A DNA stretch of 39,238 bases from Kiritimatiellales bacterium. Lineage in GTDB: Bacteria; Verrucomicrobiota; Kiritimatiellia; Kiritimatiellales; Pontiellaceae. Positions 3,458 through 25,076 of the stretch are shown here, in pieces. The notes below the pieces were generated by a model. The model was not told the DNA's origin. It did no database searches and saw nothing but the letters and a program-made list of their open reading frames with translations. The stretch covers positions 1-39,238 of the forward strand of contig JADGFE010000007.1 in assembly GCA_016744085.1 (NCBI GenBank), written 5' to 3'. The stretch's first letter is position 1; every line of letters begins with the position of its first letter. The position numbers were made by a program, and so were the translations under genes.

Positions 3458-4903
3458 TCACGTATAACTTAAGCGCATATCGCGGGCGGCTTTTACCTCA
3501 TCCAACCTTCCAACAGGAGTTGAAACAGGTGCTTCATGCATTTTATCCGGATCGGTTTTAGCCAATTCAACCAGATCTTCCATCACCGTAACGAAGTGAT
3601 CCAAGGTATCTCGGTCTTCGGTTTCGGTCGGTTCAACCATGATTGCTTCGGAAACATTCAATGGGAAATAAACGGTGGGCGGATGAATGCCCCGATCAAT
3701 CATGCCCTTGGCTATGTCCAGCGTGTGCACCCCATATTGCTTCAGGAAATCGCCGGAAAAAACAAACTCATGCATGCAACGTCCTTTATCCGGAGCACCA
3801 AACAATGGTCGAAGTTTTTCCTGCAGATAGTTCGCATTCAAAACAGCCCGGTTACTGGTCCCCAGCATGCCATCACGACCGAGTGACAGGATATAGGCAT
3901 AGGCGCGAGCGATAATTCCAAAGTTGCCGTAAAACGGCGCAATATACCCGATGCTTTTAGGTTCGTCGTAATTCAGGGCATAAGTTCCATCTTTGGTTTT
4001 TTCTACCCGCGAAATAGGCAAGTATGGACGAATCTTTTCTACTACACCCACTGGCCCTGCGCCGGGTCCGCCCCCGCCATGCGGTGTGGCAAATGATTTA
4101 TGAAGATTCAAATGGCAGATATCAAAGCCCATATCGCCCGGCTTGTAGCGCCCCATGATTGCATTAAAGTTTGCTCCGTCATAATACATCAGACCATCGA
4201 CCTCATGTACCGCATCACAAATTTCTTTAATCCGTGGATTGAAAACACCCAGCGTATTCGGGCTCGTCAGCATAACCCCGGCAGTTTTTTCATTGAGCGC
4301 TTCCATGAACAAATCAAAATCCATGACTCCATTTTCATCAGAGGGGATGGTTACCACATTATAACCGGCCAGGCGCGCACTGGAAGGATTCGTCCCGTGA
4401 GCAGAGTCTGGGATAATGATATGATCTTTGTCGTTGCCCTTGTCCTTATGATATGCCGCCATCATCATAACGCCGGTTAATTCGCCATGCGCGCCAGCCA
4501 TTGGTTGCAACGTGAATTCATCCAGTCCCGTTGCTTCAGACAATAGACGCTCGGTTTTATAAAGAATCGCCAAAGAACCCTGTGTCAGTAGCCCCCCACC
4601 ACGCAACTGCGGCCAGAGTGGATGCACATCCGTTAGCTCCGGCAGGTTTGCTGCTGCTTCGCAGGCCTTCGGATTGTACTTCATGGTGCACGACCCGAGC
4701 GGATAAAAATGCGTATCCACCGAAAAATTCATACGTGAAAGTGCAGTAAAATGGCGAACCACTTCAGCTTCGGATACTTCGGGCAGTTCTGCCGGCTGGC
4801 TCCGTAAATATTTACTCGGGATCTCCTCTGTTGGCGAAATTTTGATGGAGGACATTTGAACCCCGGGACGACCGGGCGAGGATTTTTCGTAAATTAGTTT
4901 CAT
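3458..4903 (-). CDS. gcvPB: Glycine dehydrogenase (decarboxylating) subunit 2, P-protein beta
   Basis: This is the C-terminal half of the split P-protein, which decarboxylates glycine and passes the aminomethyl group to lipoyl-GcvH. At 481 residues it is normal for the subunit. The PLP lysine lies in NLHKSFATPHGGGGPGAGP. The DSAHGTNPSSA and EPTETEDRDTLD segments are also typical. The start is 12 bases after the gcvPA stop, with AAGGA upstream of the ATG. It is the last gene of a gcvT-gcvPA-gcvPB operon. Activity needs GcvH and a dihydrolipoamide dehydrogenase, neither of which is in the window. Confidence 0.96.
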   Translation of the reverse strand: MKLIYEKSSPGRPGVQMSSIKISPTEEIPSKYLRSQPAELPEVSEAEVVRHFTALSRMNFSVDTHFYPLGSCTMKYNPKACEAAANLPELTDVHPLWPQLRGGGLLTQGSLAILYKTERLLSEATGLDEFTLQPMAGAHGELTGVMMMAAYHKDKGNDKDHIIIPDSAHGTNPSSARLAGYNVVTIPSDENGVMDFDLFMEALNEKTAGVMLTSPNTLGVFNPRIKEICDAVHEVDGLMYYDGANFNAIMGRYKPGDMGFDICHLNLHKSFATPHGGGGPGAGPVGVVEKIRPYLPISRVEKTKDGTYALNYDEPKSIGYIAPFYGNFGIIARAYAYILSLGRDGMLGTSNRAVLNANYLQEKLRPLFGAPDKGRCMHEFVFSGDFLKQYGVHTLDIAKGMIDRGIHPPTVYFPLNVSEAIMVEPTETEDRDTLDHFVTVMEDLVELAKTDPDKMHEAPVSTPVGRLDEVKAARDMRLSYT

Positions 4904-4915
4904 GATTTAAATTCC

Positions 4916-6265
4916 TTATGCCTTCAGTGCGCTTTCAAGTTTCGCCGCCAGAATATCGATCTCTTCCTTCGTCCGTTTTTCGGTAAAGGCTAATAAAAGA
5001 ATGTTATCCATTCCCTTGTAATATCGCCCTACCGGAAATCCGCCAGCAATACCCTGATCAACCAAAGCACTGACCACCGTGGAAGCATCTTTTGGGAGCC
5101 GGAGAGCAAACTCGTTGAAGAAGCGTCGATTGAATGCTGGCTCAACGCCCTCAATTGCTGTGAGCTTGTGCCATGCATAGCTCGCCCGGTCCATACACTC
5201 GCGACCGACCTCTCGAAATCCTTCGCGGCCCACAAGCGACAGATAGATAATGGCTCGTAATGCGCAGAGCTGTACGTTACTGCAAATGTTCGATGTAGCT
5301 TTTTCGCGCCGGATGTGTTGCTCACGAGCCTGCAGTGTCAGTACATAGCCACGTCGGCCTTGCGCATCTTCCGTTTCTCCAACGATGCGGCCCGGCATTT
5401 TGCGTACGAATTTCTTTTTTGTGGCCATAAAGCCAAGATATGGCCCGCCGAAATTAAGTGGCAACCCAATGCTCTGCCCTTCTCCGGTCACAATATCAGC
5501 TCCCATCGCACCGGGTGTTTCAATATGCGACAGAGCAACAGGATAGGCCGACATAACAGCCAGGGCCTTCACTGAATGAACCTGATCAATCAGCTCGGTT
5601 AGATTATCAAGACAGCCGAAAAAGTTTGGATTTTGAAATACAACTGCACCCACCGAATCGTCAATGGCCTCGGTGTAGGCCACGCGATCTGATGCGCCGC
5701 TTCCTGAGAGAGGAACAACCTGATAATCCACCGATAGGTTTTGCGTGTAGCACTTCAGCATCGCCCGGTAAATTGGACTTACTCCTTCATCAACCAGCAC
5801 CTTGTTCCGCTTGGTTTGGCGCAGCGCCATCATCACGCCTTCAATCAAAGCCGTTCCGCCATCAAACAAGGACGCATTTGCCACTTCCATACCTGTTAAA
5901 CGGCAAATCGCAGTTTGATACTCAAATGCGGCCTGCAAGGTTCCCTGCGAGGCTTCCGGCTGATAAGGCGTATATGCAGTATAGAACTCCCCTCGGCTTG
6001 CCAAGGCACTGACGGCAGCCGGTATATAATGATCGTAAAAACCAGCTCCACAGAAATTCACCAGGTTCGTTGCATTTTTTGAAGCAACTTTCCGGATATG
6101 CTGCATCATTTCCATTTCGGAAAGGCCTTCGGGAATGTTCAGTTCATCCGAACGTAAATGATCAGGTATCGCTTCAAACAGCTCGTCGAATTCAGTAATG
6201 CCCAGCGTCTGGAACATCGCTTCCTGATCTTGCTCACTTGTCGCACAGAATGGAGTTTTTTTCAT
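4916..6265 (-). CDS. gcvPA: Glycine dehydrogenase (decarboxylating) subunit 1, P-protein alpha
   Basis: This is the N-terminal half of the split glycine decarboxylase, forming an alpha2beta2 PLP enzyme with GcvPB. From the ATG at 6265 it is 449 residues, the usual length, and begins MKKTPFCATSEQ. A longer in-frame reading to 6322 would run back through the gcvT stop region and adds residues absent from the family. Recognisable stretches are GAGFYDHYIPAAV, YTPYQPEASQGTLQ and the Rossmann-like central region. It starts 16 bases after gcvT. Confidence 0.95.
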   Translation of the reverse strand: MKKTPFCATSEQDQEAMFQTLGITEFDELFEAIPDHLRSDELNIPEGLSEMEMMQHIRKVASKNATNLVNFCGAGFYDHYIPAAVSALASRGEFYTAYTPYQPEASQGTLQAAFEYQTAICRLTGMEVANASLFDGGTALIEGVMMALRQTKRNKVLVDEGVSPIYRAMLKCYTQNLSVDYQVVPLSGSGASDRVAYTEAIDDSVGAVVFQNPNFFGCLDNLTELIDQVHSVKALAVMSAYPVALSHIETPGAMGADIVTGEGQSIGLPLNFGGPYLGFMATKKKFVRKMPGRIVGETEDAQGRRGYVLTLQAREQHIRREKATSNICSNVQLCALRAIIYLSLVGREGFREVGRECMDRASYAWHKLTAIEGVEPAFNRRFFNEFALRLPKDASTVVSALVDQGIAGGFPVGRYYKGMDNILLLAFTEKRTKEEIDILAAKLESALKA

Positions 6266-6281
6266 TTTATCACGTTCTCGT

Positions 6282-7361
6282 TTAAGTACGGGCGGTCCCG
6301 TTTTTATAAAAAGGCAGTTCAACTATTTCAGCGGGGAATTTTTTACCGCGGATTTCAACATCCAATATTTTACCGACTTCGGCTAAATCCGCTTTCACAT
6401 AAGCCATCGCCACAGCAACACCCAGGCTCGGAGCCAGCGATCCACTGGTAACTTCTCCAATTTCATCGCCTCCCAGATAAACCGCATCGTGCTCTCTAGC
6501 CGCTCGTTTTGAAGAAAATTTCAACCCAACAAGCAGTTTTTCCGGAATTTCGAGATCGTTCATCACGCATTCTTTGCCGATAAAATTCTTGCTCCGATCA
6601 ATGAACATACCTCTCGACATCAAAGCAGGCGATTGGCTATCGGAAAGCTCATGACCATACAACGGATAACCCATTTCTAAACGGAGTGTATCTCGGGCTC
6701 CCAAACCACCGGGCTCACAATACGGATGTTCCACAATCTTCTGCCATAGCTGGGCAGCTTCCTCAGCAGGCAGATATATTTCATAGCCAAGCTCACCGGT
6801 ATATCCCGTACGGCTGATTATAGTGGAAGATTCCAAAGCCTGAAATTCCTTGAAACGGAAATATCCTAGATCGGGTAGAGCACACCCAAACACTTCTTCC
6901 AGAACATCGCGCGATTCCGGCCCCTGCACATCCAGTTTGGCTAATTGGTCGGATAGGTCTACAAAGATGGTATCAGCCGAAATCCGACTTTGAATCCACT
7001 TGGCATCTTTTTCAGCAGTTCCTGCATTTACCACGAGCATATAGCGCTCTTCATCCATTCGATAGCAGGTCAGGTCATCGATTACGCCGCCCTGATCATT
7101 CAGCAGGAAGCCATATCGTACCTGGCCAATTTTAAGGGATCGGACATTACAAGTCAGGAGATTTTCCAGGTCCTCTAGAGCAGTTTTGCCGTAGAGCTCA
7201 AACTCACCCATGTGGCAGATATCAAAAATTGAGGTGTGATTTCTGGTTTGCTCATGTTCGTCGAGAATACCCGCATACTGAATCGGCATATCCCATCCAC
7301 CGAATTCCCCCATGCGAGCGCCTAATTTTTGATGCTGCTCATGCAGCGGAGTTTTCTTCAT
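6282..7361 (-). CDS. gcvT: Aminomethyltransferase (glycine cleavage T-protein)
   Basis: GcvT transfers the methylene carbon from aminomethyl-lipoyl-GcvH to THF and releases ammonia. The protein is 359 residues. Seen: GEFGGWDMPIQY near the N-terminus, HMGEFELYG, the region around VIDDLTCY holding the catalytic Asp, GYTGELGYEIYLP and GLGARDTLRLEMGYPLYGHEL. It heads the gcvT-gcvPA-gcvPB operon. I saw no tandem glycine-riboswitch-like structure in the 138 bases between it and the divergent kinase gene. The ribosome site is weak. Confidence 0.96.
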   Translation of the reverse strand: MKKTPLHEQHQKLGARMGEFGGWDMPIQYAGILDEHEQTRNHTSIFDICHMGEFELYGKTALEDLENLLTCNVRSLKIGQVRYGFLLNDQGGVIDDLTCYRMDEERYMLVVNAGTAEKDAKWIQSRISADTIFVDLSDQLAKLDVQGPESRDVLEEVFGCALPDLGYFRFKEFQALESSTIISRTGYTGELGYEIYLPAEEAAQLWQKIVEHPYCEPGGLGARDTLRLEMGYPLYGHELSDSQSPALMSRGMFIDRSKNFIGKECVMNDLEIPEKLLVGLKFSSKRAAREHDAVYLGGDEIGEVTSGSLAPSLGVAVAMAYVKADLAEVGKILDVEIRGKKFPAEIVELPFYKNGTART

Positions 7362-7499: not shown

Positions 7500-8501
7500 A
7501 TGATCAAACGAATACCCATTATCTATTCGCTAGCGTTCCTTGCATATCTAACTTTTGCTTTCACGATTTTTCCGGTGTTGAGCTACAACGCATCTATTCC
7601 CCTTATTCCACTGATCGCACTGGGAAGCTGGATAGGCGGCAGACGATTTGGTCTCTGGTTACTGCTCACAGGAATGATTTACTTCTACATTCTTTATCAG
7701 TACTACGCAGATATTTACATTCACTATTATGAACGTTTTCTAGCCCCATTACTCTGCCTTGCTATCATCGAGTTATTCGCAATACTTCGTCACAATCTCA
7801 ATGCCATCAAAACGGCTAATCAAAATTTAGGCCGAATGGTTGCTGAACGTACTACAGAACTGAATACCCTGACAGATCTATTGATCCGCGATTCGGAACA
7901 AAGAAGGGTACTACACGGACAGTGGTTGCATGATGGCATTGGACAATACTTGACCGGCATTCAACTGTATTGCGCTTCCTTGGCAGATCAACTCTTGGAC
8001 GAAGGAAACCCCAGCGCGTCCATTGCTTTTGCACTTCGCAACCAATGCCACTCAACGCATAATCAAATCCGACATCTGGCACGAATGCTATTTCCTATTA
8101 AAATCGGGGATGTTGGATTAATTACCGCACTTCATGAATTATCATCATGCTTCATCGATCTAAAGAATGTAAAATTCACAACAAGAGAGTTGGGCGAGTT
8201 ACCGGAACTTCCAGAAGATATCGCGTTACAAATGTACCGCATTTGTCAGGAAAACGCTAATTTTGCGATTTTTCATCTGAACGCCAGTCAGGTAGATATT
8301 CAGATACGTGCAACTAAACTGACTTATACGGTGACCTTCGGACATAATGGTTCTGCAAAATCGACAGAGGGAAAAGAACTACTGAATAAACTGATTGATT
8401 ATAGGCTTGAACAGATTTCAGGAACAGCTTCCTCTGGTTATTCTACTCATTATGAAAAAACCATAATTTACACCATTCCGAACCCAGAACAGGAAGGTTA
8501 G
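7500..8501 (+). CDS. Membrane histidine kinase-like protein with intact H-box but degenerate ATP domain
   Basis: A 333-residue sensor-kinase relative. Residues 1-97 carry about four hydrophobic helices, followed by a short coiled coil (AERTTELNTLTDLLI). A HisKA_3-type dimerisation segment follows, with the phospho-acceptor motif LHDGIGQ (H144, D145). The ATP-binding half is recognisable but damaged. The N-box reads QENANFAIFHL, with Phe255 where the family has its Mg-binding Asn. The G1 box DxGxG is replaced by FGHNGS, and the G2 glycines are not conserved. It is followed two bases later by a paralogue with the opposite set of losses. No response regulator is nearby. The ribosome site is weak. 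It is likely a phospho-accepting subunit that cannot bind ATP normally (inference). Confidence 0.85.
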   Translation: MIKRIPIIYSLAFLAYLTFAFTIFPVLSYNASIPLIPLIALGSWIGGRRFGLWLLLTGMIYFYILYQYYADIYIHYYERFLAPLLCLAIIELFAILRHNLNAIKTANQNLGRMVAERTTELNTLTDLLIRDSEQRRVLHGQWLHDGIGQYLTGIQLYCASLADQLLDEGNPSASIAFALRNQCHSTHNQIRHLARMLFPIKIGDVGLITALHELSSCFIDLKNVKFTTRELGELPELPEDIALQMYRICQENANFAIFHLNASQVDIQIRATKLTYTVTFGHNGSAKSTEGKELLNKLIDYRLEQISGTASSGYSTHYEKTIIYTIPNPEQEG

Positions 8502-8503
8502 GT

Positions 8504-9520
8504 ATGGGACATAAACAGCGATTTGTTTATCTCTTGTCTGGATGGTTCGCGTACGCACTCTTTAGCTTCAGCATGTTTCCAGATCTTCAAATTACCGTAA
8601 TGCTATTTTCAATTCCGTTGGCCATGCTTGCAGGCTGGTTGTTTAGTTATAAAGGAGCTTTATCGAATACTTTACTGACCATTCCTTACCATTATATTTT
8701 ATTGTGTCACTACTCGGATTTCCCAAGCGTACAGCTGGAAGCGCTAAACCCGTTTGGCATTGGGACGCTGCTCTTCTTTTCATTTGGAACCGCCTTTTTT
8801 AGAATAACCCAATTGCGCTACGAACAGCTCAACAGCACTCTTGAATTAGCCGTTCAGGAGAGAACTCAGGATTTAACCGCCCTCACTGATCACCTAATTG
8901 AAACAACAGAAATGCTACATATCCTTACCGCAAAAGGATTACTAAAAGAGCCAATCATTAAACTGACCCGTATGAAGGGTACGAGTAATCTCCTCGTTCA
9001 ATACCTTAAGGATTGCAACCATCCAGGAACTGAAACTGCTGAAAATATTGTGACACTTATTCATATTTGCAGTCATCAATTGATTACGCTGGGACAGCAA
9101 AAAGAACGAAACACAATGCAATGCCCCATCGAAGAAATGCTTAGTCAGTTACAACTCCTCGCTGGAGATAAAACCACAATTGATATTACCGGTAATTGGA
9201 ATCATATGAAGATCGATACCATTCGGAGTATGCATCCAATAATCCATGAAGCTGTTACCAACGCATTGCGACATGCCTATCCAAGGAAAATATTGATCAG
9301 CATTCAGAGCAAACCTTCTCATTTCATAATTTCAATAGAGAACGATGGAAAGCCAATACCCTCAAATTTTAAAGAAGGAATGGGATTTTCACTTATGCGC
9401 TACCGGATCAGACGTCTGGGAGGCTCCTTATCTGTTGAAGCAGGAACGAAACTAAAAACTCGAATTGAGTGCTTCATACCACGTATGCGTGATCACTCAG
9501 GCATTCCGCATTTTTCCTGA
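8504..9520 (+). CDS. Membrane histidine kinase-like protein with intact ATP domain but no phospho-acceptor His
   Basis: A 338-residue paralogue of the upstream gene with the same layout: helices in residues 8-100, coiled coil (VQERTQDLTALTDHLIE), dimerisation-like helices, then an HATPase_c domain. The catalytic half looks sound: N-box HEAVTNALRHA (N253), G1 box ISIENDGKP (D281, G282) and G2 box GMGFSLMRYR. The H-box is lost. Aligned without gaps from LTD onward, H144 of the partner corresponds to K148 here, in GLLKEPIIKL. The AGGAAGG ribosome site lies inside the end of the first gene, so the two are probably translationally coupled. It could act as the ATP-binding half of a heterodimer (inference). 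Confidence 0.85.
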   Translation: MGHKQRFVYLLSGWFAYALFSFSMFPDLQITVMLFSIPLAMLAGWLFSYKGALSNTLLTIPYHYILLCHYSDFPSVQLEALNPFGIGTLLFFSFGTAFFRITQLRYEQLNSTLELAVQERTQDLTALTDHLIETTEMLHILTAKGLLKEPIIKLTRMKGTSNLLVQYLKDCNHPGTETAENIVTLIHICSHQLITLGQQKERNTMQCPIEEMLSQLQLLAGDKTTIDITGNWNHMKIDTIRSMHPIIHEAVTNALRHAYPRKILISIQSKPSHFIISIENDGKPIPSNFKEGMGFSLMRYRIRRLGGSLSVEAGTKLKTRIECFIPRMRDHSGIPHFS

Positions 9521-9782
9521 ATCTGTTATCCCTGTGTGGTTTCAGCTCCCGATCGTTATTTGGCTTGGATTCATGGTCTACAAAAAAGGTAAATCCCATA
9601 TTACCTACGGAATTATCGCAACCGTCCTTATGTATCTAGCCATCATTATCGGCGCATTTTGCGGAGGCGTTGAAAAAGGGGACTGGCACTGTGACCATTA
9701 TTCGATGCCGTCAATCAGCTTCTGGGCGGACCTCGCTCTGCTCGTCATTACGGTATGGTTAGCCAAAAGAATATTTCAATAA
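9465..9782 (+). pseudogene. Small membrane ORF, possibly an internal piece of a decayed transporter
   Basis: An open frame of up to 105 codons overlaps the end of the kinase gene. It has only weak start candidates (TTG 9465, GTG 9489) and no clear ribosome site. The sequence holds three hydrophobic stretches, the first two reading QLPIVIWLGFMVYKKG and ITYGIIATVLMYLAIIIGAF. This spacing of helix, basic KG loop and helix reminds me of an internal region of the CstA carbon-starvation/peptide transporter family, but I cannot confirm that. It could also be a short membrane protein in its own right. Confidence 0.4.
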
Positions 9783-9957
9783 TCTATACCGAAATTCCTA
9801 TGGTTTTCATGACCAGCTGGGCCATGGCGATAAATTTAGCCGCTTCTATGAAAATTAAAAACGACTACTCTTCAGCACCGGATCCATTATCTCTATATTA
9901 CAAGTGTGGATAATTATTGAAGGAATCATTGCCTTGGTCCAGCTCAAACGAAAATAG
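9782..9957 (+). pseudogene. Frameshifted C-terminal remnant of a membrane protein
   Basis: Two overlapping reading frames give one plausible hydrophobic protein end. The first frame reads IYTEIPMVFMTSWAMAINL and on to SMKIKN. After the A-rich tract near 9850-9860 a second frame continues [20 protein letters not shown] and ends ALVQLKRK-stop at 9957. One indel would join them. The shape, two helices and a basic C-terminus, matches the end of a polytopic transporter such as CstA. Together with the preceding ORF it may represent a transporter gene with a large internal deletion. The rest of 9958-10054 shows no gene. Confidence 0.35.
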
Positions 9958-10054
9958 TACTTATTGCTTATTGCGTATTTTTTCCAGAACTCGGAAACTC
10001 CATAAATTCAGCAATCCGAAGTGCGTCATACGCAGTAACACTCAGGAGTATTTT

Positions 10055-10597
10055 ATGAAGAACCAATACAAAGAAATTCTAACCCAAATTGGCGAAAACC
10101 CAGAACGCGAAGGTCTACTCGACACCCCGCAACGTGCCGCCAAAGCGATGGAATTCCTGACCAAGGGCTATCACGAAAAACTTGAGGATGTCATTAACGA
10201 TGCTGTTTTCACGGTGGAAGATAATCACATGATTATCGTTAGAGACATCGAACTCTACAGCCTTTGCGAACACCACATGCTCCCCTTCTTCGGAAAATGC
10301 CACATCGGTTATATCCCTGAGGGAAAAGTTCTAGGCGTCAGTAAGCTGGCTAGGATCGTTGATCATTTTGCCCGTCGATTGCAAATTCAGGAACGGCTTA
10401 CCAATGAGGTGGCAAGCACACTAATGGAGACGGTCGCTCCTGAAGGCGTGGGTGTGGTTATCGAAGCTCAACATCTCTGCATGATGATGCGCGGCGTTGA
10501 AAAACAAAACTCATGTATGGTGACATCTGCCATGCTGGGTTCGTTCCGCAAGGATCCGTCTACCCGCACCGAATTCCTGAAGCTAATCGGGAAATAA
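10055..10597 (+). CDS. folE: GTP cyclohydrolase I
   Basis: FolE converts GTP to 7,8-dihydroneopterin triphosphate, the first step of folate and pterin synthesis. From the ATG at 10055 the protein is 180 residues. CAGGAGT lies 5 bases upstream, so longer in-frame readings from 9917 are rejected. The zinc ligands are C71 and H74 in [11 protein letters not shown] and C142 in QHLCMMMRG. The [14 protein letters not shown] and [19 protein letters not shown] segments are typical. It converges on lptD, 24 bases away. Confidence 0.97.
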
Positions 10598-15631: not shown

Positions 15632-16189
15632 TTAATAGGCCTGATAAACCGCGTGGCCAGCGGCGACAAGAGCGTCGTTCACATTGCTCCAAACGCCATC
15701 CTGCTCCATCCAGATTTCCGCCAGATAACGGCCATATTTACCGCGGCGATCTTTCAGCGTTTCAATAATGATTTCCCGCCCATCAATCAGTTCCCGCAGA
15801 AAATCGCGCGATGCCACGCCACGCGCCTTATCCGGCCCCGTCATTTCCGGCGCATTAATCCGCACCAACCGCAGCTTTTCGTTCCGGAGCCAAATACCCA
15901 GCCCCAGATCAATATCCACGCGGCAGGTATCGCCGTCATAGACCGATTGCACCTGCGCGGTGTAGTGGTAAAGTTCCGCGTCCTTTGCAATCAGGTTCAG
16001 CTTCATGCCCAGCGCATCCACATAGCTTTCCATCGTACCGATGCGAAAATTTAAATCGCCGCTTTCCAAACGACTGATCGTCGCCTGTGTAATCCCCGAT
16101 TTCTGCGCAACATCGCCCTGCGAAAACCCGACCCTCTTCCGTTCGCTCTTCAACAAAGATCCTATTTTCTGTCCATTTTCACCACTCAT
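15632..16189 (-). CDS. XRE-family HTH fused to staphylococcal-nuclease-like domain
   Basis: A 185-residue two-domain protein. Residues 7-67 are an XRE helix-turn-helix (FSQGDVAQKSGITQATISRLE). Residues 74-185 match the SNase/thermonuclease fold. DGDT (85-88), R107, E115 in the NAPE motif and R154 in KYGRYLAEIW correspond to D19/D21, R35, E43 and R87 of the S. aureus enzyme. The usual Asp40 is Asn112. SNase enzymes cut DNA and RNA with calcium, so the active site looks usable. There is no signal peptide, so this would be a cytoplasmic DNA-targeted nuclease or regulator. AAGGAG lies close before the ATG. It follows hsdR on the same strand behind its own putative promoter/operator. Function of the fusion is unknown. 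Confidence 0.88.
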   Translation of the reverse strand: MSGENGQKIGSLLKSERKRVGFSQGDVAQKSGITQATISRLESGDLNFRIGTMESYVDALGMKLNLIAKDAELYHYTAQVQSVYDGDTCRVDIDLGLGIWLRNEKLRLVRINAPEMTGPDKARGVASRDFLRELIDGREIIIETLKDRRGKYGRYLAEIWMEQDGVWSNVNDALVAAGHAVYQAY

Positions 16190-16413: not shown

Positions 16414-19275
16414 CTACCCTCCCAACGCCCCTGTAATAAAGGTGTCGATGAAGGTATAGATTCGGTCGATAATCCGCTCGGCGGTGGAGGCGCGCTCTTT
16501 CAATCCGGGCTTTTTATCCATGGCTTCCACCACATCGTTTCGCAGAGGCGACCTGCTGGTATAGAGGACGTTTTCAACCAGTTTTTCGAGCTTGTCGCCA
16601 TCAAGCCCCTCTTCTTCAGCGAGCGTTGCGAACGCCATGATTTGCTCTTCCTTCCAGTAGGATTCGAATTCCTCCGGGATATCGGCGGGATCGTCGATCT
16701 GCGGAAGATGTTTTTCGATAAACCGTTCGATGAGCTCTCGCTTGCTGCGCAGATCCGTCTCGCCGCTCAACAGGTCGATAATCGTCTTCTTGCGGGCGGC
16801 CTGCTCTTCAACCGGAGCTTCCTTGAGTTCGGCCAGCAGCTTCAGAATGTAGGCCACGTTGATTTCATCGCGATGGATCAGCTCCAGTTCGAAATCGATA
16901 TCGTTGAGGATCGAAACCTTTTCGGTTTGGTTTGCCAGTTTCACCTTGTCGTGCAGATCAAGATATTTACTTTTGTAATCCGCAAAAGACTGCTCCGTCA
17001 TGGAAAGGTCGTCGAAGGTGAACTCGGTGAAGGTTTTCAGAACGTTGTGCAGGCGGATCAGGTTGCGGAAGGTTTTGATGAACTCCAGCTCCTCCTCTTC
17101 ATCGGCCAGCTGGGAGACGCTGTTGACCGACGGCGCAATTTGAATCAGCTCAATGAATGATTCATTGAACTGCTTCACATATTCTTCATACGGATCGAGC
17201 AGAATTTCTTCGGTCGGATTTTTGTTCGCGAAGAGCGTAATGGCAACATCCGTGTTCTTCTTAAGGTTGCGAAAGCAGACGATATTCCCCTGACTCTTCA
17301 GTTCCTTGCAAAGGCGGTTGGTACGCGAATAGGCCTGGATCAGGCCGTGGTATTTCAGGTTCTTATCCACATACAGCGTATTCAGCTTTTCGCTGTCGAA
17401 CCCAGTCAGGAACATATTCACCACCAGTAGCACATCAATCTGCCCGGTCTTCATACGCTTGGCCACATCGTTGTAGTAGTTGTAGAACGACTGCGAGTCG
17501 TGGGTGGTGTAGTTGGTGCCGAACAGCTGGTTATAGTCGGCGATGAAGTTTTCCAGCTGATCGCGGGAATGCTGCGTGCGGTAGGGCTCGTCCGGTTCCT
17601 CCATCACATGCAGATCCACCTCATCGTCCCGCATCGGGAAGGCCGCGTCCAGATCCTCCTCGTTCTGCTGATACGAGAATATGGTCGCGATTTTCAGGTC
17701 GTGTCCGCCCGCCTTCTTCAGCCGGGCGAATTCCTCGTAGTAGCGGATCACCGACGGAATGCCCGACACGCAGAAGATTGCGTTGAACTGCCGTCGATGC
17801 GTTTTACGGTCGTGATGCGCGGCAATGTATTCGGTAATGGCCGTAGTCCGCTCGGGTGCGCACAGCACCTCCGCCTCGTCGATGGCCTCCACCGCAAGAT
17901 CGGTAATCTGCCCATCCTTCTGCTTGAAGGTCTTCATGTATTCCACTGAAAACTTCAGTACGTTTTCATCGCGGATCGCATCGGTGATCACATATTTATG
18001 CAGGCAATCATCAAACAGCGTTTTCGTGGTTTTTTTGATTCCCTCCACGCTCATGGCGTTGTCCTTAAATATCGGCGTTCCGGTAAAACCGAACATCTGG
18101 CACTTCGTAAAAAACGCCTTGATCGCCTTGTGCGTATCGCCAAACTGGCTGCGGTGGCACTCGTCGAAAATAAAGACCACGCGCTGGGTTTGCAGCGGCG
18201 CCATCGATTCGCTGAACCGCGCCTTCTTGATGGCTGTATTCAGTTTCTGGATCGTCGTCGCAATCAGCTTGGTATCGGGCGAGGCAAACTGCTTCACCAG
18301 CATCTTTGTGTTGTTGGTTCCGTCGATGCTGCCCTTGCAAAAGCTATTGAACTCCCGGGTGGTCTGATAATCCAGATCCTTACGATCGACCACAAACACG
18401 ACTTTATCCACCTTCGGAGAGTTCGTCAGAATCTGGCTCGTCTTGAACGACGTCAGCGTCTTTCCCGACCCCGTTGTGTGCCATACATAACCGAATCCCC
18501 GACCATACTGCACCTTCTCAACAATCGCCTCGGTGGCATACACCTGATACGGGCGCAGCACCATCAGCATCTTCTTCGACTCGTTCAGCACCAGGAAGCG
18601 CGTCACCATTTTGGCTAGATGGCACTTTTCCAGAAACTGCTCCGCAAAAACCGACAGCTGCGGTACCGGCTTATTGTTCTTGTCCGTCCAGAAAAACGTC
18701 TGCTTAAAACTGCGCTGATCCACCCGGCCGTTGGCGTAATACTTTGTATTCACCCCATTGCTGATCACAAAAACCTGGATGTACTGAAACAACGCATCGT
18801 TCGCGCCGTAGGAATGGCGCTCATAGCGGTTGATCTGATTAAACGCCTCCTTCAGCTCCAGCCCGCGCCGCTTCAGTTCAATCTGCACCAGCGGCAAACC
18901 ATTGATCAGAATCGTCACGTCATACCGATTCTTAAACCGGCCTTCCACCGTCACCTGCTGCGTCACCTGAAATCGGTTCTTGCACCAGTCGATCTGATCC
19001 AGCAATTCCACCGTGCGCGTCTTGCCCTCGGCATCGACATATTCCACCCGATCGCGCAGCGTCTTTGCCTTCTCAAAAATCGACCCCTTGCTCAGCTTAT
19101 TCAGAATCTGCCGAAAATCAGAGTCGGTTAGCGCAATCTGGTTATGCGCCTCGAGCTGCATTTTCAGATTGGCCAAGAGCGAGGCCTCATCATGCACCGC
19201 CACCGAATCATAGCCCATGCCGACCAGCTGCTTAACCAGGCTATCCTCTAAAATCTGTTCGGGTTGGGTCGTCAT
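16414..19275 (-). CDS. hsdR: Type I restriction enzyme R subunit
   Basis: HsdR supplies ATP-driven translocation and cleavage to the HsdR2M2S1 complex. The protein is 953 residues. The N-terminal nuclease domain shows the PD-(D/E)xK residues D119 (RYDVTIL) and E133/K135 (QIELK). SF2 helicase motifs follow: Walker A HTTGSGKT (K272), DECH in IFDECHRSQ, TGTP, and motif VI QAYSRTNR. A helical C-terminal region for M-subunit contact completes it. It starts 21 bases after the pRiA4b-domain gene. All sites look intact, so restriction is probably active. Confidence 0.96.
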   Translation of the reverse strand: MTTQPEQILEDSLVKQLVGMGYDSVAVHDEASLLANLKMQLEAHNQIALTDSDFRQILNKLSKGSIFEKAKTLRDRVEYVDAEGKTRTVELLDQIDWCKNRFQVTQQVTVEGRFKNRYDVTILINGLPLVQIELKRRGLELKEAFNQINRYERHSYGANDALFQYIQVFVISNGVNTKYYANGRVDQRSFKQTFFWTDKNNKPVPQLSVFAEQFLEKCHLAKMVTRFLVLNESKKMLMVLRPYQVYATEAIVEKVQYGRGFGYVWHTTGSGKTLTSFKTSQILTNSPKVDKVVFVVDRKDLDYQTTREFNSFCKGSIDGTNNTKMLVKQFASPDTKLIATTIQKLNTAIKKARFSESMAPLQTQRVVFIFDECHRSQFGDTHKAIKAFFTKCQMFGFTGTPIFKDNAMSVEGIKKTTKTLFDDCLHKYVITDAIRDENVLKFSVEYMKTFKQKDGQITDLAVEAIDEAEVLCAPERTTAITEYIAAHHDRKTHRRQFNAIFCVSGIPSVIRYYEEFARLKKAGGHDLKIATIFSYQQNEEDLDAAFPMRDDEVDLHVMEEPDEPYRTQHSRDQLENFIADYNQLFGTNYTTHDSQSFYNYYNDVAKRMKTGQIDVLLVVNMFLTGFDSEKLNTLYVDKNLKYHGLIQAYSRTNRLCKELKSQGNIVCFRNLKKNTDVAITLFANKNPTEEILLDPYEEYVKQFNESFIELIQIAPSVNSVSQLADEEEELEFIKTFRNLIRLHNVLKTFTEFTFDDLSMTEQSFADYKSKYLDLHDKVKLANQTEKVSILNDIDFELELIHRDEINVAYILKLLAELKEAPVEEQAARKKTIIDLLSGETDLRSKRELIERFIEKHLPQIDDPADIPEEFESYWKEEQIMAFATLAEEEGLDGDKLEKLVENVLYTSRSPLRNDVVEAMDKKPGLKERASTAERIIDRIYTFIDTFITGALGG

Positions 19276-19296
19276 TTTTCTGCCGCCTTCTTTAAC

Positions 19297-21345
19297 TTAA
19301 AACCATGCGCGGAGTTGGGCATTGATCTCTTCAAGGTCAAACGCTTCCGGATCAATCGGTCCGCCGAGCCATTCGAGCAGTTCAGCCTTCTCCCCGCCAT
19401 CGGGGCCTTCGAGCGTTTCCAGCATTTGGAAATAACCGTACATTCCGCCGCAGTCATCCGGAGGACACGCCCGCTTACCCTTGATGCAAACCGGCAGCAC
19501 TTGTTCCGGATCGGCCGGAAGTATTTTTTCCAAAAGCACCTGATGCTCCCAGGAATCGCCGAAATCATATTCGTAGACGATCTTATCCTTTTCCTTGCGG
19601 AGAAAATTCCGAAGAGGAACCCCGATGCTATCGGCCACCTCCATTCCCGAAAACCCGTCATCCTCGCCGCCCGGCTGATAAAACGTCCGGCCATCAATAA
19701 ATTGATGCAAATGCGAATTCGTCCAGCCGAATGCGGCCTGAATTACGGCATGCAGATGCTCCAGCTCAATCGAGGCCGGAACCAGCACCCGCCGCCAAAT
19801 GGGGGGCTTGGCATCTTTCAGCGAAATCTTCAGCTGATAAATCGGCCCGTCGGGATCAGCGAACGATTCGCCCGAACCCTTTTGTTGAAGCTGTTCTGAC
19901 ATATCCTCAATGCCGGCGGACAGCGCCCGGGCCATTTCATCCAACGGCACCGGGAACACATCAGCAGACTGCTCATTTTGATTGCAGAAAACCAATACAG
20001 AATGGATCAGCCCGCTCAGCTCGCCCAGCTGCAGGGTTGCCGGGTGATTCATGGTGTCCATTGGATCCTGTGCATTTCGATCCATGCCGCGCAACACCTG
20101 TAGGCATTGATCGTTCAGGTCCAGAAAAACTGCACGCAATTCGCGGTGCACATCTTTGAGCGGCAGATAATCCGCACGCACGCCATCCCACCGTTCCTGC
20201 CAGAGGCGATGGAACTCCTGCTGATCATTTTCGGAAGGAAACGACAACGCTCGCCCGCTGATCACCCGTCCCAGCACGGCCTCCGGATTTGTTTCCCCGC
20301 GCGAAAATGCGTCGCGCATATAGGCCTCCGCCTCTTCCGAATCCAGCGACAACCCCAACAGTACAAAATGGGCATCCAGCTCGGTCGCGGGTTCCTTTTC
20401 TCCGCCCGCCATCGAATTCAGCATCCGGGAGTCGAGCGGCTCATCCTCCGGCCAGAAAAAACTGACATTGCCCGACGTTTGCATGGTCAAATCCTTCTGC
20501 GCATTAAAAAAGGTCGCCAGCGTAAGGGGCGGAGCGGAAAGAACCGACGATGCCTCTTCGTTGCACTCGGCCAACCACAGCATTCGGGCAAACTGTTCAT
20601 AACAATCATGATCCATTTCAGCATCTAAACAGGCTTCTTCAAACCCGAGCCGCAGCGCCTGCGTCCACTTCTGGATCGTTGTGAAATCAACCACGCCCTG
20701 CTCGGCTGGCATATGCCGAACCGAAAAGATGCCCGCCTGCCAATCCTCCACCGTCAGCATCAGCGAATCGCCGGAGAGGAACCCGCACGTTTCGAAAAAG
20801 GACTGTAGATCGAACACCGATATTTCCACATCCTTCTCGAAGGGCGGCTGGATTTTATTCGCATTCGACTCGTGGTCCACCGCCAAATACTCCATGGCAC
20901 CGTACTCACCGAAATACATCAGAAAGCGATGGACGGCTGCAAGCGGCTGCTGTACGGACCGGGTCGGCACCACCGAGCCATCCGGCAGCTTTAAAACCGC
21001 CTTGCTCGGGAAAACCTCGCGCGATAAATACGGAAGAAACCGATGCCCCGGAACCAGAAAACCGGACTCCACCTCTTCCCCCAGCGGCGTTACCCGAAAT
21101 TCCGCCCCCTGGAAAACAACAGGACGCGGTATAAAGCGATCCTCAAATCCCTCCCGGTCATCCTCAAACAGCCAATCCGACCCGCAGGCCAAATCAAACA
21201 GACGATCCTCATCGGCATCGTCGAACCCCTTCACATTCCGGGCCACATGTTTCGCCAACTCCTCAAAATCAAACGATCCGGCCTGCTTCAACGCAAAGGC
21301 CCGAATCAGTTCATCCATCTTTTCTACATCCATCTTCTTCTCCAT
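19297..21345 (-). CDS. Large protein with C-terminal plasmid pRiA4b ORF-3-like domain, embedded in the RM operon
   Basis: A 682-residue cytoplasmic protein with no signal peptide. The last 180 residues match the pRiA4b ORF-3 domain (YQLKISLKDAKPPIWRRV, VIQAAFGWTNSHLHQF, YEYDFGDSWEHQV, CPPDDCGGMYGY). These are short family signatures of a domain with unknown biochemistry. The first 500 residues are acidic and match nothing I recognise. An alternative ATG at 21333 has a better-placed GGAG and would shorten it by four residues. It lies between hsdS and hsdR in the same direction. Its role may be accessory to restriction or an independent defence gene; this is context only. Confidence 0.8.
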   Translation of the reverse strand: MEKKMDVEKMDELIRAFALKQAGSFDFEELAKHVARNVKGFDDADEDRLFDLACGSDWLFEDDREGFEDRFIPRPVVFQGAEFRVTPLGEEVESGFLVPGHRFLPYLSREVFPSKAVLKLPDGSVVPTRSVQQPLAAVHRFLMYFGEYGAMEYLAVDHESNANKIQPPFEKDVEISVFDLQSFFETCGFLSGDSLMLTVEDWQAGIFSVRHMPAEQGVVDFTTIQKWTQALRLGFEEACLDAEMDHDCYEQFARMLWLAECNEEASSVLSAPPLTLATFFNAQKDLTMQTSGNVSFFWPEDEPLDSRMLNSMAGGEKEPATELDAHFVLLGLSLDSEEAEAYMRDAFSRGETNPEAVLGRVISGRALSFPSENDQQEFHRLWQERWDGVRADYLPLKDVHRELRAVFLDLNDQCLQVLRGMDRNAQDPMDTMNHPATLQLGELSGLIHSVLVFCNQNEQSADVFPVPLDEMARALSAGIEDMSEQLQQKGSGESFADPDGPIYQLKISLKDAKPPIWRRVLVPASIELEHLHAVIQAAFGWTNSHLHQFIDGRTFYQPGGEDDGFSGMEVADSIGVPLRNFLRKEKDKIVYEYDFGDSWEHQVLLEKILPADPEQVLPVCIKGKRACPPDDCGGMYGYFQMLETLEGPDGGEKAELLEWLGGPIDPEAFDLEEINAQLRAWF

Positions 21346-21374
21346 TCCAATCCTTGGAAACTATCGTTTAAAAA

Positions 21375-21395
21375 TCACGCCTCACTCATCACACA
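21375..21395. repeat. Three TCAnnnn heptads overlapping the hsdS stop
   Basis: TCACGCC, TCACTCA and TCACACA run in tandem. The TCA at 21389-21391 is the hsdS TGA stop on the minus strand. The 10-mer TCACGCCTCA is shared with the heptad cluster near 13928. Confidence 0.55.
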
Positions 21396-22588
21396 AACAT
21401 TTTTTGAAGCAGCCCCTGCTTAAACGCCCGCGCCCCCGCAACCTGCTCCTCCACCAAAGCAATCCGCCCATCCACCGCCGATAAACAATCCGCGATCTTT
21501 TGCTGCTCGGCGAGGCAGGGATACGGAATCGGCATATCGAAGAAATCAGATCCAGTAATATTCATTCGATCATGACGAGCACCATAGTTGGCAACAGCGC
21601 ACATATATTTATGCCAACACGTCGTCGAGAAGTATGATTGGTAAAAACTGAGATCACCAGATTCGAACCGAATAACTGTATAGAGCGGCGACATAACCCC
21701 CTTCCTTAACTCATTTCTCTTGAGTGGCCCAACAGGCGCTGTCACAGAAATCCTAGGATTATAAACGAAATCATCGACATTAACGATGTAGTAGCCCTCA
21801 AGATTATCTTGATTCGCGATATCTTTATCAAAGTAATCGCTTTGGTCGACAATACCCTGAGTCGCAGAATTAGTCAGAACAGCACGCTCCATAGTCCCAG
21901 TGTTTTTTTCCATAACTTTTGATGCAACCTCCCCCAGCTTCTTCTCCTCCCAATCGGGGAAGGGATTTCCTTGGTCGTCTTTGAAGCGGAGGGATTGATT
22001 GAAGAGCTTTTGCATCAGCCCCTTTTTATAATCCATCAGCAGCGCCCGCTTTTTCTCCAGCCCCTCAATCCGTCCATCCACCGCCGAAAGAAAGGAGGCG
22101 ATCTTTTTTTGTTCGGGAAGTTCAGGAAGGTGAAAAGGGATTTTAGCACAAACCTCTTTATTAAGTTTTGGTTGCGCAGTGCCAGTGTTAAATGGCTCAT
22201 AATTAATTCTCTCAAGAACTTCACAAACAAAACTCTGGGCATTCTCATGCTTGCTTCTCATTACGTGAGCATGGTTGTTCACCCAGTATTTACCAGATGC
22301 TAAAAAAACTAACCTGCTATTACGCGTGATGATGTTTGCGCCATCTTCACCAAGCAAAATTAGCTCTTCTTCAAAAATATAATCATCAATGTAATCAATA
22401 ATTCCTGAAGCACCATAGTAAGGGTAAATACCCTGAATTTTTGAACGATCAGAATCCTTTAAAGGTTTTCTTTTCCCATCCAAGAAATCGACTACCTCTC
22501 CCAACCGTTTCTCCACCCACTCCGTGGAAAATTCGGGAAAGCGGAGAGCGGGGATTTTCTTTTTCAACTGGCGTTTATTGGCGGTCAT
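21389..22588 (-). CDS. hsdS: Type I restriction-modification specificity subunit
   Basis: HsdS recognises the split DNA target for methylation and restriction. From the ATG at 22588 it is 399 residues; a longer reading to 22669 would overlap the RAYT gene by 58 bases. It shows the usual double arrangement. TRD1 begins RFPEFSTEWVEKRLGEV, and TRD2 begins near FPDWEEKKLGEV. Each is followed by a conserved helical spacer: LPEQKKIASFLSAVDGRIEG first, and AEQQKIADCLSAVDGRI near the end. The TRDs are visibly more AT-rich than the flanking genes, as is common for exchanged specificity modules. The target sequence cannot be read from this. Confidence 0.93.
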   Translation of the reverse strand: MTANKRQLKKKIPALRFPEFSTEWVEKRLGEVVDFLDGKRKPLKDSDRSKIQGIYPYYGASGIIDYIDDYIFEEELILLGEDGANIITRNSRLVFLASGKYWVNNHAHVMRSKHENAQSFVCEVLERINYEPFNTGTAQPKLNKEVCAKIPFHLPELPEQKKIASFLSAVDGRIEGLEKKRALLMDYKKGLMQKLFNQSLRFKDDQGNPFPDWEEKKLGEVASKVMEKNTGTMERAVLTNSATQGIVDQSDYFDKDIANQDNLEGYYIVNVDDFVYNPRISVTAPVGPLKRNELRKGVMSPLYTVIRFESGDLSFYQSYFSTTCWHKYMCAVANYGARHDRMNITGSDFFDMPIPYPCLAEQQKIADCLSAVDGRIALVEEQVAGARAFKQGLLQKMFV

Positions 22589-22611
22589 CTGTGGCTCAAA
22601 ATTTTCGTGGT

Positions 22612-23526
22612 TTAGTTTGCATTCAACAGGCGGTCGAGCATGCCGTCGGGTTGGACGTGGGGCGTCCATAGGTCGGCGGCGTTTTCGATGACGAATCGGT
22701 TGCGGGCTTCGGCGGCGGCGAGGTCGCCGTCGGCGTTTTTCATCTCCAGCACCAGCATCCGATTTTCTTCGAGGGCCTGGCGGACGGCGGGGTCGGCCGC
22801 GGCGCGATCAAGCGTCCAGGCCGGGCACCAGATCAGCGGGCGTTTGGTTTCCAGCAGGCGGGCGAAGATTTGCTTTTCCATCGGCGAATGAAACCCGCTG
22901 AAATAGGCTTTTGCTGCGGGGATTTTTTCGGGCTTCGGCGCATTGCGGCTGCATAGAATTCCAAGGGTTGGAAGTTGCCAAAGTGCGGGATTGCCCATGC
23001 CGCGCAGTCCGTTGGAAAATTGCGTAACGCAACACCACGGATTCATTTGAATATAGTGCGCGATTTTTTCCTCGGCCTCCGGAGAGCGCACAATCATTTC
23101 ATAATAATTGCGGTGCCAGATTTTTCCCTTGAAGCGGGGAAATTTTCCGGCCTTCACGCCCTTAATATATTCGTGCGTGGTGCGGGATTTGAAGGCGCAA
23201 ATAAAATCGCCCAACGCCTTTTCGCCCTTCCGAATGGGGAGCAATCCATGAAAATGATCGGGCATAATTGTGTAGGGGTGCGCCTTGTGCGCACCCTCTC
23301 TTGTGGACGAGGCGGGCACGAGGCCAGCCCGTACGGACGCGGCGGCTTCGCAAAGAGTTTCCTCCCAGATTCGGGAGAGGATTTCTTTTGCCGATTCATG
23401 TGCAAAAATATTTCCCGCATCCCGATGTGCGCAGATCGTGATGAAATAGGTCCCGCCGCCGGCATAGTCGTGCCCTTGCAGGCGGATGCTGCGGCGGTGG
23501 TGCTTGGCTGGATCGTAGGGACTCAT
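22612..23526 (-). CDS. REP-associated tyrosine transposase (RAYT) with extra C-terminal domain
   Basis: A 304-residue Y1/HUH transposase-like protein of the RAYT group, which act on REP palindromes as single-stranded DNA. The opening RRSIRLQGHDYAGGGTYFITIC, the HUH motif H91-F92-H93 in IMPDHFHGLL and the catalytic Tyr158 in HYIQMNP are in place. Residues 61-85 look like an in-frame insert encoded by a palindromic sequence. Residues about 185-290 (FSGFHSPMEKQIFARLL, LIWCPAWTLDRA) form an added domain that may be DprA/SLOG-like; this is a guess from pattern. The ATG overlaps the hsdM stop by one base (TAATG), so translation is coupled. It sits between hsdM and hsdS, which is unusual for a RAYT. 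Confidence 0.87.
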   Translation of the reverse strand: MSPYDPAKHHRRSIRLQGHDYAGGGTYFITICAHRDAGNIFAHESAKEILSRIWEETLCEAAASVRAGLVPASSTREGAHKAHPYTIMPDHFHGLLPIRKGEKALGDFICAFKSRTTHEYIKGVKAGKFPRFKGKIWHRNYYEMIVRSPEAEEKIAHYIQMNPWCCVTQFSNGLRGMGNPALWQLPTLGILCSRNAPKPEKIPAAKAYFSGFHSPMEKQIFARLLETKRPLIWCPAWTLDRAAADPAVRQALEENRMLVLEMKNADGDLAAAEARNRFVIENAADLWTPHVQPDGMLDRLLNAN

Positions 23527-25076
23527 TAAAAGGGCGGCGCAATTCCAAGCTCCTTGCAGAAGTCGGCGATTTTCTTATCCGTTCCGGCCATGCCTTTTTC
23601 CAATGTCTGGAGATCGGCGGATACGGCGGCGAGGTCGATGGGTTCCTCTTCTTCAAACGTATCAACATAGCGCGGAATGTTGAGGTTCCAGTCGTTTTCC
23701 GCGATCTCAGCCATGCTCGCTTCATAGCTGTATTTATCGGTCCCCTTGCGCTGGCGATAGGTTTCGACAATGAGCGCCACATCTTCGTCGCGCAGGACGT
23801 TCTGGTTCTTCACCTTTTCAAAATGGCCGTCGCCGGAAGCATCGATAAAGAGAATGGAATCGTCTTTCTGGCGGCATTTTTTGAGCACGAGGATACAGGC
23901 GGGAATGGAAGTGCCGTAGAACAGGTTGGCAGGCAGGCCGATGACGGCGTCGAGATAGTTCAAATCCCTGATGAGGTATTCGCGAATATGCCCTTCCGCC
24001 GCGCCACGGAACAACACGCCGTGCGGCAGGACGCAGGCCATGGTGCCGTTGTCGGCGAGCTGATAGATCATGTGCTGCACAAAGGCAAAGTCGGCTTTGC
24101 TGGTGGGGGCCAGTTTGCCGTATTCGCAAAACCGCTCGTCGCTTTCGAGCACGGGACTTTCCTTGCCTTTCCACTTGGCGGAAAACGGCGGGTTGGCCAC
24201 CACGGCTTCGAAGCGCCGCTCTTTATGTTTTGGTTCTTCAAGCGTGTCTTCCTGCTGAATGTCGAAATCGCGATAGTGTACGCCGTGTAGGATCATGTTC
24301 ATGCGGGCGAGGTTGTAGGTGGTGCGGTTCATCTCCTGCCCGAAATATTCGGCCACCTTGGCCTCTTTTGCCACGCGCAGCAGCAATGATCCCGATCCGC
24401 AGGTCGGATCGTAAACCGAACGCAGCTGTTTTTTCCCGGTCGTCACGATTTTTGCCAGCACGGTGGAGATCTGCTGCGGGGTATAGAACTCGCCGGCCTT
24501 TTTTCCGGCTCCGGCGGCAAACTTGCCAATCAGATATTCATAGGCATCGCCCAGCACATCGGCCTTCGTGTCGCCCAGTTTAAAGTCGATTTCATCCAAA
24601 TGGCTGAGGATTTTGGCGATCAGTTCGTTGCGCGCGTTCGGGCTGCGCCCCAGCTTGGTGGACTGCAGATCCATATCCTCGAACAGCGCGGTGAAATCCT
24701 CCTCGCTCTCGGTGCCCATGGTGCTCTGCTCAATGTGCGTCAGGATTTCGGCGAGCTCGTCGAGGATGTAGTTCGATCGGCCCTTTTTCGAAATGGCGGA
24801 AAAGAGTTGTCCCGGCGCCAGGAAATAGCCGAGCGTTTCAAGCGACTCATTATGGATGGCCGCCAGCAGTTCGGGATCATCCAATGTGCGGTAGTCCTCG
24901 ACCGCCTCGCCTTTCAGCAGCCCGTTGGCATAGAGGTCCTGTTTTTCGGAAAGGTATTTGTAGAAAATGAAGCCTAGGCAATAGTCGCGGAATTCATCCG
25001 CGTGCATCTTCCCGCGCAGCTCATCCGCGATATCCCAAAGTTTTTGTTCCAACTGCCGTTTCTGATCACCAGACAT
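23526..25076 (-). CDS. hsdM: Type I restriction-modification DNA adenine methyltransferase subunit
   Basis: HsdM transfers methyl from SAM to N6 of adenine in the HsdS-defined target, and with HsdS protects the host DNA. The protein is 516 residues. The helical N-terminal domain holds YLSEKQDLYANGLL. SAM motif I is DPTCGSGS (223-229) and the catalytic NPPF is at 295-298. GEFYTPQQISTVLAKIV is the classical HsdM signature. It is the first gene of the operon hsdM-RAYT-hsdS-pRiA4b-hsdR. The start has GGGGA a few bases before the ATG. Confidence 0.97.
   Translation of the reverse strand: MSGDQKRQLEQKLWDIADELRGKMHADEFRDYCLGFIFYKYLSEKQDLYANGLLKGEAVEDYRTLDDPELLAAIHNESLETLGYFLAPGQLFSAISKKGRSNYILDELAEILTHIEQSTMGTESEEDFTALFEDMDLQSTKLGRSPNARNELIAKILSHLDEIDFKLGDTKADVLGDAYEYLIGKFAAGAGKKAGEFYTPQQISTVLAKIVTTGKKQLRSVYDPTCGSGSLLLRVAKEAKVAEYFGQEMNRTTYNLARMNMILHGVHYRDFDIQQEDTLEEPKHKERRFEAVVANPPFSAKWKGKESPVLESDERFCEYGKLAPTSKADFAFVQHMIYQLADNGTMACVLPHGVLFRGAAEGHIREYLIRDLNYLDAVIGLPANLFYGTSIPACILVLKKCRQKDDSILFIDASGDGHFEKVKNQNVLRDEDVALIVETYRQRKGTDKYSYEASMAEIAENDWNLNIPRYVDTFEEEEPIDLAAVSADLQTLEKGMAGTDKKIADFCKELGIAPPF

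Follow-up and report, generated by a model that had tools for sequence, protein, structure and literature searches.

A likely split histidine kinase encoded by tandem, reciprocally inactivated membrane HisKA_3 paralogues

Histidine kinases are dimers, normally of identical chains, and whether phosphorylation occurs in cis or in trans and which protomer has which role can usually only be resolved with engineered half-dead mutants. The window, a stretch of 39,238 nucleotides from a Kiritimatiellales bacterium of the Pontiellaceae, contains two neighboring genes, here called A and B, whose products resemble membrane-bound histidine kinases, and the question arises whether these two proteins have to combine to form one working enzyme. 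A sequence-only reading of the window had proposed that they form a split histidine kinase with complementary catalytic losses. The tandem paralogous pair and the reading frames described there were confirmed:

7500..8501, + strand: gene A, membrane HisKA_3-type protein, putative phospho-acceptor subunit with a degenerate CA (ATPase-fold) domain; based on ORF, Pfam and core model
8504..9520, + strand: gene B, membrane paralogue of A, putative ATP-binding (kinase) subunit with a pseudo-DHp region lacking the histidine; based on ORF, HATPase_c match and core model

The two genes are separated by only 2 bp and code for proteins of 333 (A) and 338 amino acids (B), which are paralogous over their full length (24% identity over 335 columns, E 2e-13). 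In Pfam searches, the sole match of A is HisKA_3 (residues 143-197; 21.4 bits, just below the cut-off of 24), and B matches HATPase_c (residues 242-326, E 1.1e-9) but not HisKA_3. B is nevertheless still built like a histidine kinase, with the complete membrane, coiled-coil and DHp layout. HisKA_3 and HATPase_c are the only kinase-related domains that Pfam finds in A and B; the criteria of a CheA-type split kinase, namely HPt (P1), P3 and CheW-like P5 domains, are not met by this measure. By domain and motif content, neither A nor B alone makes a complete histidine kinase. The residues on which this statement rests are the following:

7929..7946, + strand: HDxxxQ motif of A (His144-Asp145-Gly-Ile-Gly-Gln149), phospho-acceptor and phosphatase motif; conservation among 45 A and B proteins
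8262..8264, + strand: Phe255 of A at the position of the N-box Asn; conservation among 45 A and B proteins
8942..8947, + strand: Leu147-Lys148 of B, replacing His-Asp; alignment of 45 A and B proteins
9260..9262, + strand: N-box Asn253 of B; Asn in 19/19 B
9341..9349, + strand: D/G1 box of B, Asn280-Asp281-Gly282; Asn280 and Gly282 in 19/19 B, Asp281 in 14/19
9377..9385, + strand: G2 box of B, Gly292-Met-Gly294; both glycines in 19/19 B, GxG in none of the A proteins

An alignment of 45 sequences confirmed the assignments of His144 and Asp145 as the acceptor motif and Phe255 as the N-box substitution in A, and the positions of Asn253, Asp281 and the GMGF stretch (residues 292-295) in B. Two details of the sequence-only reading did not hold: Lys148 of B had been placed opposite the acceptor histidine, but A-His144 aligns with B-Leu147, and Lys148 with A-Asp145. 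Furthermore, Asp281 had been named as the D-box residue, whereas the canonical position is occupied by Asn280 (I-E-N280-D281-G). An asparagine at this position is a minority but normal variant, which is found in 7 of 58 ordinary HisKA_3 kinases. Since the D-box residue of B is Asn, however, its affinity for ATP is not assured, and no biochemical data are available.

Since one such half-degenerate pair on its own might have arisen by accident, relatives were collected, yielding a set of 26 full-length A and 19 B proteins. In the A proteins, His144 and Gln149 are invariant (26/26 each) and Asp145 is present in 25 of 26. At the N-box position, ten different residues are found in all, with Asn in only two proteins; neither Asp nor Asn occurs at the D-box (0/26), and GxG is likewise missing (0/26), also in the two A proteins with an N-box Asn. 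The B proteins show the opposite pattern: Asn253, Asn280, Gly282, Gly292, Gly294 and Thr319 are each conserved in 19/19, the acceptor histidine is found in none of them and the glutamine of HDxxxQ in one, and the histidine position is occupied by Leu, Ile, Tyr or Cys. The positions lost in each partner thus vary freely, with ten residues at the N-box of A and four at the histidine site of B. Pfam leads to the same division in all aligned members scanned (25 A and 14 B): HisKA_3 is matched by 25/25 A and by 1/14 B (E 0.009), HATPase_c by 14/14 B and by 1/25 A (borderline, E 0.007). In a comparison of 19 matched genomes, identity in the H-box amounts to 81% for A versus 26% for B, and in the CA domain to 26% for A versus 41% for B, with the nucleotide-site residues forming the best-conserved part of the catalytic half of B. 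All 58 ordinary HisKA_3 kinases used for comparison possess both the histidine and the N-box Asn; as these kinases were retrieved by an N-box pattern, only the figure for the histidine is an unbiased control. Without exception, the 19 complete loci of the genus show the reciprocal loss; it is fixed and does not represent a background state. The proposal of complementary losses is hence supported and extended from one sequence to 19 complete loci.

It could be argued that A and B are each homodimeric kinases that work by an unrecognized route, with a divergent ATP pocket in A or a different phospho-acceptor in B. Two A proteins do keep the N-box Asn, and the CA fold of A is confidently modeled. 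However, Asp or Asn is absent from the D-box and GxG is missing in all 26 A proteins, the N-box position is occupied by ten different residues, and the invariant columns of B contain no histidine apart from the N-box residue His257, which is why an alternative conserved histidine in B was dropped as a candidate. We consider this explanation very improbable.

The models of the cytoplasmic cores are in line with a kinase fold in both proteins. AlphaFold2 predicts a DHp hairpin and a CA fold for A (pLDDT 91) and for B (pLDDT 85); these are models of single chains, computed from alignments restricted to the window proteins and a limited set of loci. The best match in the PDB is DesK for the core of A, and DesK together with the CA domain of VraS for the core of B. 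Whole-core TM-scores reach only 0.4-0.5 with a large rmsd, as would be the case with differently hinged domains, and those of single CA domains reach 0.77-0.80. A sequence search of the PDB with A gave one chance match only.

A and B are part of a conserved locus. Among 29 genomes of the family, 19 contain a complete locus, and pieces are found at contig ends in two more (G004 and G015). The gene order is gcvT, one to three full-length A genes, a single B gene and usually cstA; B is single and last in every complete locus, and truncated A copies are additionally present in G002 and G021. With the exception of contig ends, no genome has A without B or B without A. It had been stated beforehand that the split-kinase proposal would be refuted by a pair that is not co-conserved, a full ATP site in A or an alternative histidine in B. 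Co-conservation held, no full ATP site was found in 26 A proteins, and no histidine other than the N-box His257 is conserved in B. In the window, the pair is bordered as follows:

6282..7361, - strand: gcvT, divergent neighbor that marks the conserved locus and is no part of the kinase; Pfam GCV_T, same neighbor in 20 genomes
9486..9659, + strand: cstA remnant that extends into the 3' end of B; ~460 codons reduced to about 57
9917..10597, + strand: folE, flanking the pair on the side opposite to gcvT

The same divergent gcvT neighbor in 20 genomes points to one ancestral locus. In most genomes with A and B in which the region is assembled, B is followed on the same strand by a gene of the CstA family (Pfam CstA, E 4e-123), and in many of them the gap is only 40-60 bp. 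The genome of the window yielded no second CstA of this type. The last residues of B in the window are unlike those of its relatives and probably derive from the deletion junction with the cstA remnant. In genome G010, gcvT directly adjoins a CstA-family gene, and A and B are cleanly absent.

Some further features of the window may be mentioned here. The glycine cleavage genes gcvT, gcvPA and gcvPB are consecutive (3458-7361); gcvT and gcvPA overlap by 41 bp when called from the first possible start, and the true start probably lies later. Positions 16414-25076 hold a type I restriction-modification operon (hsdM, an unassigned 304-aa ORF, hsdS, a gene for a 682-aa protein with a PRiA4_ORF3 domain, and hsdR), adjoined at 15632-16189 by a gene for a small protein with an HTH_3 and a staphylococcal-nuclease-like domain.

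The truncated A copies in two genomes and the cstA remnant of the window might suggest that A and B are themselves degenerate paralogues on their way to being lost. This pseudogene reading was dropped because it is contradicted by conservation, and it can practically be ruled out: 19 species have full-length A and B, which share 23-49% identity and have low dN/dS ratios. Between G012 and G002, dN/dS is ~0.19 for two pairs of A genes and 0.08 for B. A and B are not decaying and are under purifying selection. Even the inactive CA domain of A has a dN/dS of 0.2-0.3 in the same comparison, and a structural or regulatory role is therefore the probable reason for its retention. If a split kinase is defined by acceptor and ATP-site residues that lie on separate proteins and are both under selection, A and B meet this definition by sequence; their function as such is inferred.

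In a tree of the cytoplasmic cores, the A proteins are monophyletic (support 97/90), a branch with support 100/97 sets A and B jointly apart from 27 complete kinases, and the B clade is unresolved. The simplest history is that a single duplication preceded the radiation of the genus, after which one copy lost its ATP site and the other its histidine. Outside the genus, no full-length A or B was found in 288 genomes at class level and 388 at phylum level at the thresholds used; essentially the catalytic part alone is matched in these searches. A scan of contigs with B alone as query yielded no relatives, and a scan with the B alignment yielded only ordinary HisKA_3 kinases, which served as background set, tree outgroup and for the structure alignments. 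The closest kinase in the sister family (G035), which is complete and encoded beside a regulator, was considered as the ancestral form, which neither the kinase tree nor the regulator tree could resolve.

Taken together, A and B likely make up a split membrane histidine kinase of the HisKA_3 (DesK/NarX) type, an obligate heterodimer in which phosphate would pass from B to A and on to a regulator; association and phosphotransfer are inferred, without biochemical data or a model of the heterodimer. In this view, A and B would pair via their DHp helices, as inferred from the shared ancestry of these regions. B would bind ATP and phosphorylate His144 of A in trans, the sole catalytically complete combination, and phosphorylated A would then pass the phosphate to a response regulator. 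The HDxxxQ motif is the phosphatase motif of the HisKA_3 family, as known from work on NarX. As A has kept this motif, A would act as a phosphatase when outside the kinase complex, and A that is not engaged with B would probably dephosphorylate the regulator.

B also matches the anti-sigma factors SpoIIAB and RsbW weakly, and one might suppose that B is a Bergerat-fold ATPase that works on its own, for instance as a Ser/Thr kinase of the anti-sigma type or as an allosteric partner, and that A acts solely as a phosphatase of the regulator, for which the retained HDxxxQ motif could be cited. However, B is paralogous to A over its full length and is laid out as a histidine kinase in its membrane, coiled-coil and DHp parts, and it would be unexpected for a mere phosphatase to hold His144 invariant in 26 A proteins. 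This possibility is regarded as remote.

In the sequence-only reading, it was stated that no response regulator is encoded nearby and that the target is unknown. The first statement held for the main ORFs of the window that were scanned, among which none was found. On the second, some progress can be reported, as a reasoned candidate is now at hand. HisKA_3 kinases usually partner with NarL-type regulators, and three proteins with a GerE match are encoded in the genome of the window (G000): a regulator beside a complete HisKA_3 kinase (C288), a protein that we take to be a sigma factor by its look (C204), and an orphan receiver-GerE protein of 220 aa (C168). Orthologues of this orphan regulator (55-68% identity) are present in 23 genomes, including 21/21 with A and B, and were not found in G001, G005, G006, G007, G011 and G013; the co-occurrence is significant without correction for ancestry (Fisher p 6e-5). 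In G018, the orphan is the sole NarL-type regulator detected. The DD, Asp and Lys residues of its receiver domain are invariant, and no kinase of this type is located near it in the ten neighborhoods fetched. The orphan regulator occurs without A and B in G010 and also in G024, in which no A or B was detected and whose genome is only 59% complete. As G010 keeps the regulator without the pair, the regulator does not strictly need A and B. The orphan NarL-type regulator is probably the target of A and B, which is inferred from co-occurrence and elimination, and shared ancestry can mimic such a pattern. Regarding the signal, CstA is a pyruvate importer in E. coli, and a kinase that senses pyruvate controls the related BtsT (PMC5847655, PMC7730263, PMC10653868); a metabolite connected to CstA is a possible signal for A and B, but this is a lead only.

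A further explanation is that A receives its phosphate from another, complete kinase, for instance the HisKA_3 kinase at C288, that B is a regulator or inhibitor that binds ATP for another purpose, and that the complementarity is incidental. Such a kinase with its adjacent regulator is indeed present in the genome of the window, and HisKA_3 paralogues are able to heterodimerize, as shown for ChrS and HrrS (PMC9491836). However, a kinase of the C288 type was not detected in G018 and several other genomes with A and B, and B is always present directly after A, with nucleotide-site residues as the best-conserved part of its catalytic half. We therefore consider this explanation unlikely and prefer a kinase composed of A and B.

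Some loci have two or three A genes, which differ in their membrane parts. One B would probably serve all A proteins of such a locus, an idea inferred from gene order, and several inputs would then feed one kinase subunit. In G012, two tandem A genes (at 7814 and 8840) are 97% identical in the DHp region and 28% in the membrane part. This is the pattern expected if the acceptors are bound to match the same B and the same regulator and their sensor ends are left to diverge; gene conversion in the common part would give the same pattern, and replacement of the sensor part is a further possibility. It is tempting to speculate that duplication and reciprocal inactivation created an obligate heterodimer in which one B is shared by up to three interchangeable acceptor and sensor subunits of the same locus, so that many inputs converge on one orphan regulator; this bolder version may equally well prove right or wrong.

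Split histidine kinases are already known, and the known examples found, CheA3/CheA4 and Hik36/Hik43, are CheA-type proteins divided by domain. The sequence-only reading had likened the pair to CheA3/CheA4 of Rhodobacter sphaeroides, a comparison that is apt for the mechanism, but not for the family. As in A and B, the acceptor histidine and the ATP-binding kinase are located on separate proteins; neither CheA3 nor CheA4 autophosphorylates alone, and together the histidine subunit is phosphorylated and then serves the regulator (PMC3591291). The histidine subunit also has phosphatase activity, and modeling links the split to switch-like responses (PMC3591291). However, CheA3 and CheA4 are soluble CheA-class proteins of a chemotaxis cluster that lack whole domains, whereas A and B are full-length membrane HisKA_3 paralogues that have kept both folds and lost active-site residues alone, and several species have more than one acceptor gene per kinase gene. 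Hik36 and Hik43 (PilL-N and PilL-C) of Synechocystis are also termed a split histidine kinase, and the two parts interact with each other and with one regulator (PMC7656254). Unlike A and B, they represent one cheA-type gene cut in two, with the HPt and CA parts separate and the genes distant from each other, and not duplicated membrane kinases. In Corynebacterium glutamicum, a ChrS pseudokinase and HrrS show that paralogous sensor kinases heterodimerize and that one partner may lack a working CA domain (PMC9491836); however, this case arose in laboratory evolution, the loss is one-sided and HrrS is still a complete kinase. The nearest solved fold is that of DesK of Bacillus subtilis, a HisKA_3 membrane sensor with a coiled coil, which acts on a NarL-type regulator and whose active dimer is asymmetric, with one CA domain contacting the DHp helix of the other protomer (PMC5231405). 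In contrast to A and B, each chain of the DesK homodimer carries both sites.

In the open-access literature searched, we found no description of a membrane HisKA_3 pair in which reciprocal loss is fixed, or of several acceptor subunits combined with a single kinase subunit. What is new here is that the pair consists of membrane HisKA_3 proteins with reciprocal inactivation, in some cases with more than one acceptor for each kinase subunit. Its half-dead partners have apparently been made and kept by evolution throughout a genus and would amount to a natural one-way heterodimer. If this is true, only phosphorylated A can form, and always in trans, and the arrays of one B with several A genes would show how inputs can be added by duplicating the acceptor half alone. 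Kinase (A with B) and phosphatase (A) would also be physically separable, which is the condition tied to switch-like responses in the modeling of CheA3/CheA4 (PMC3591291).
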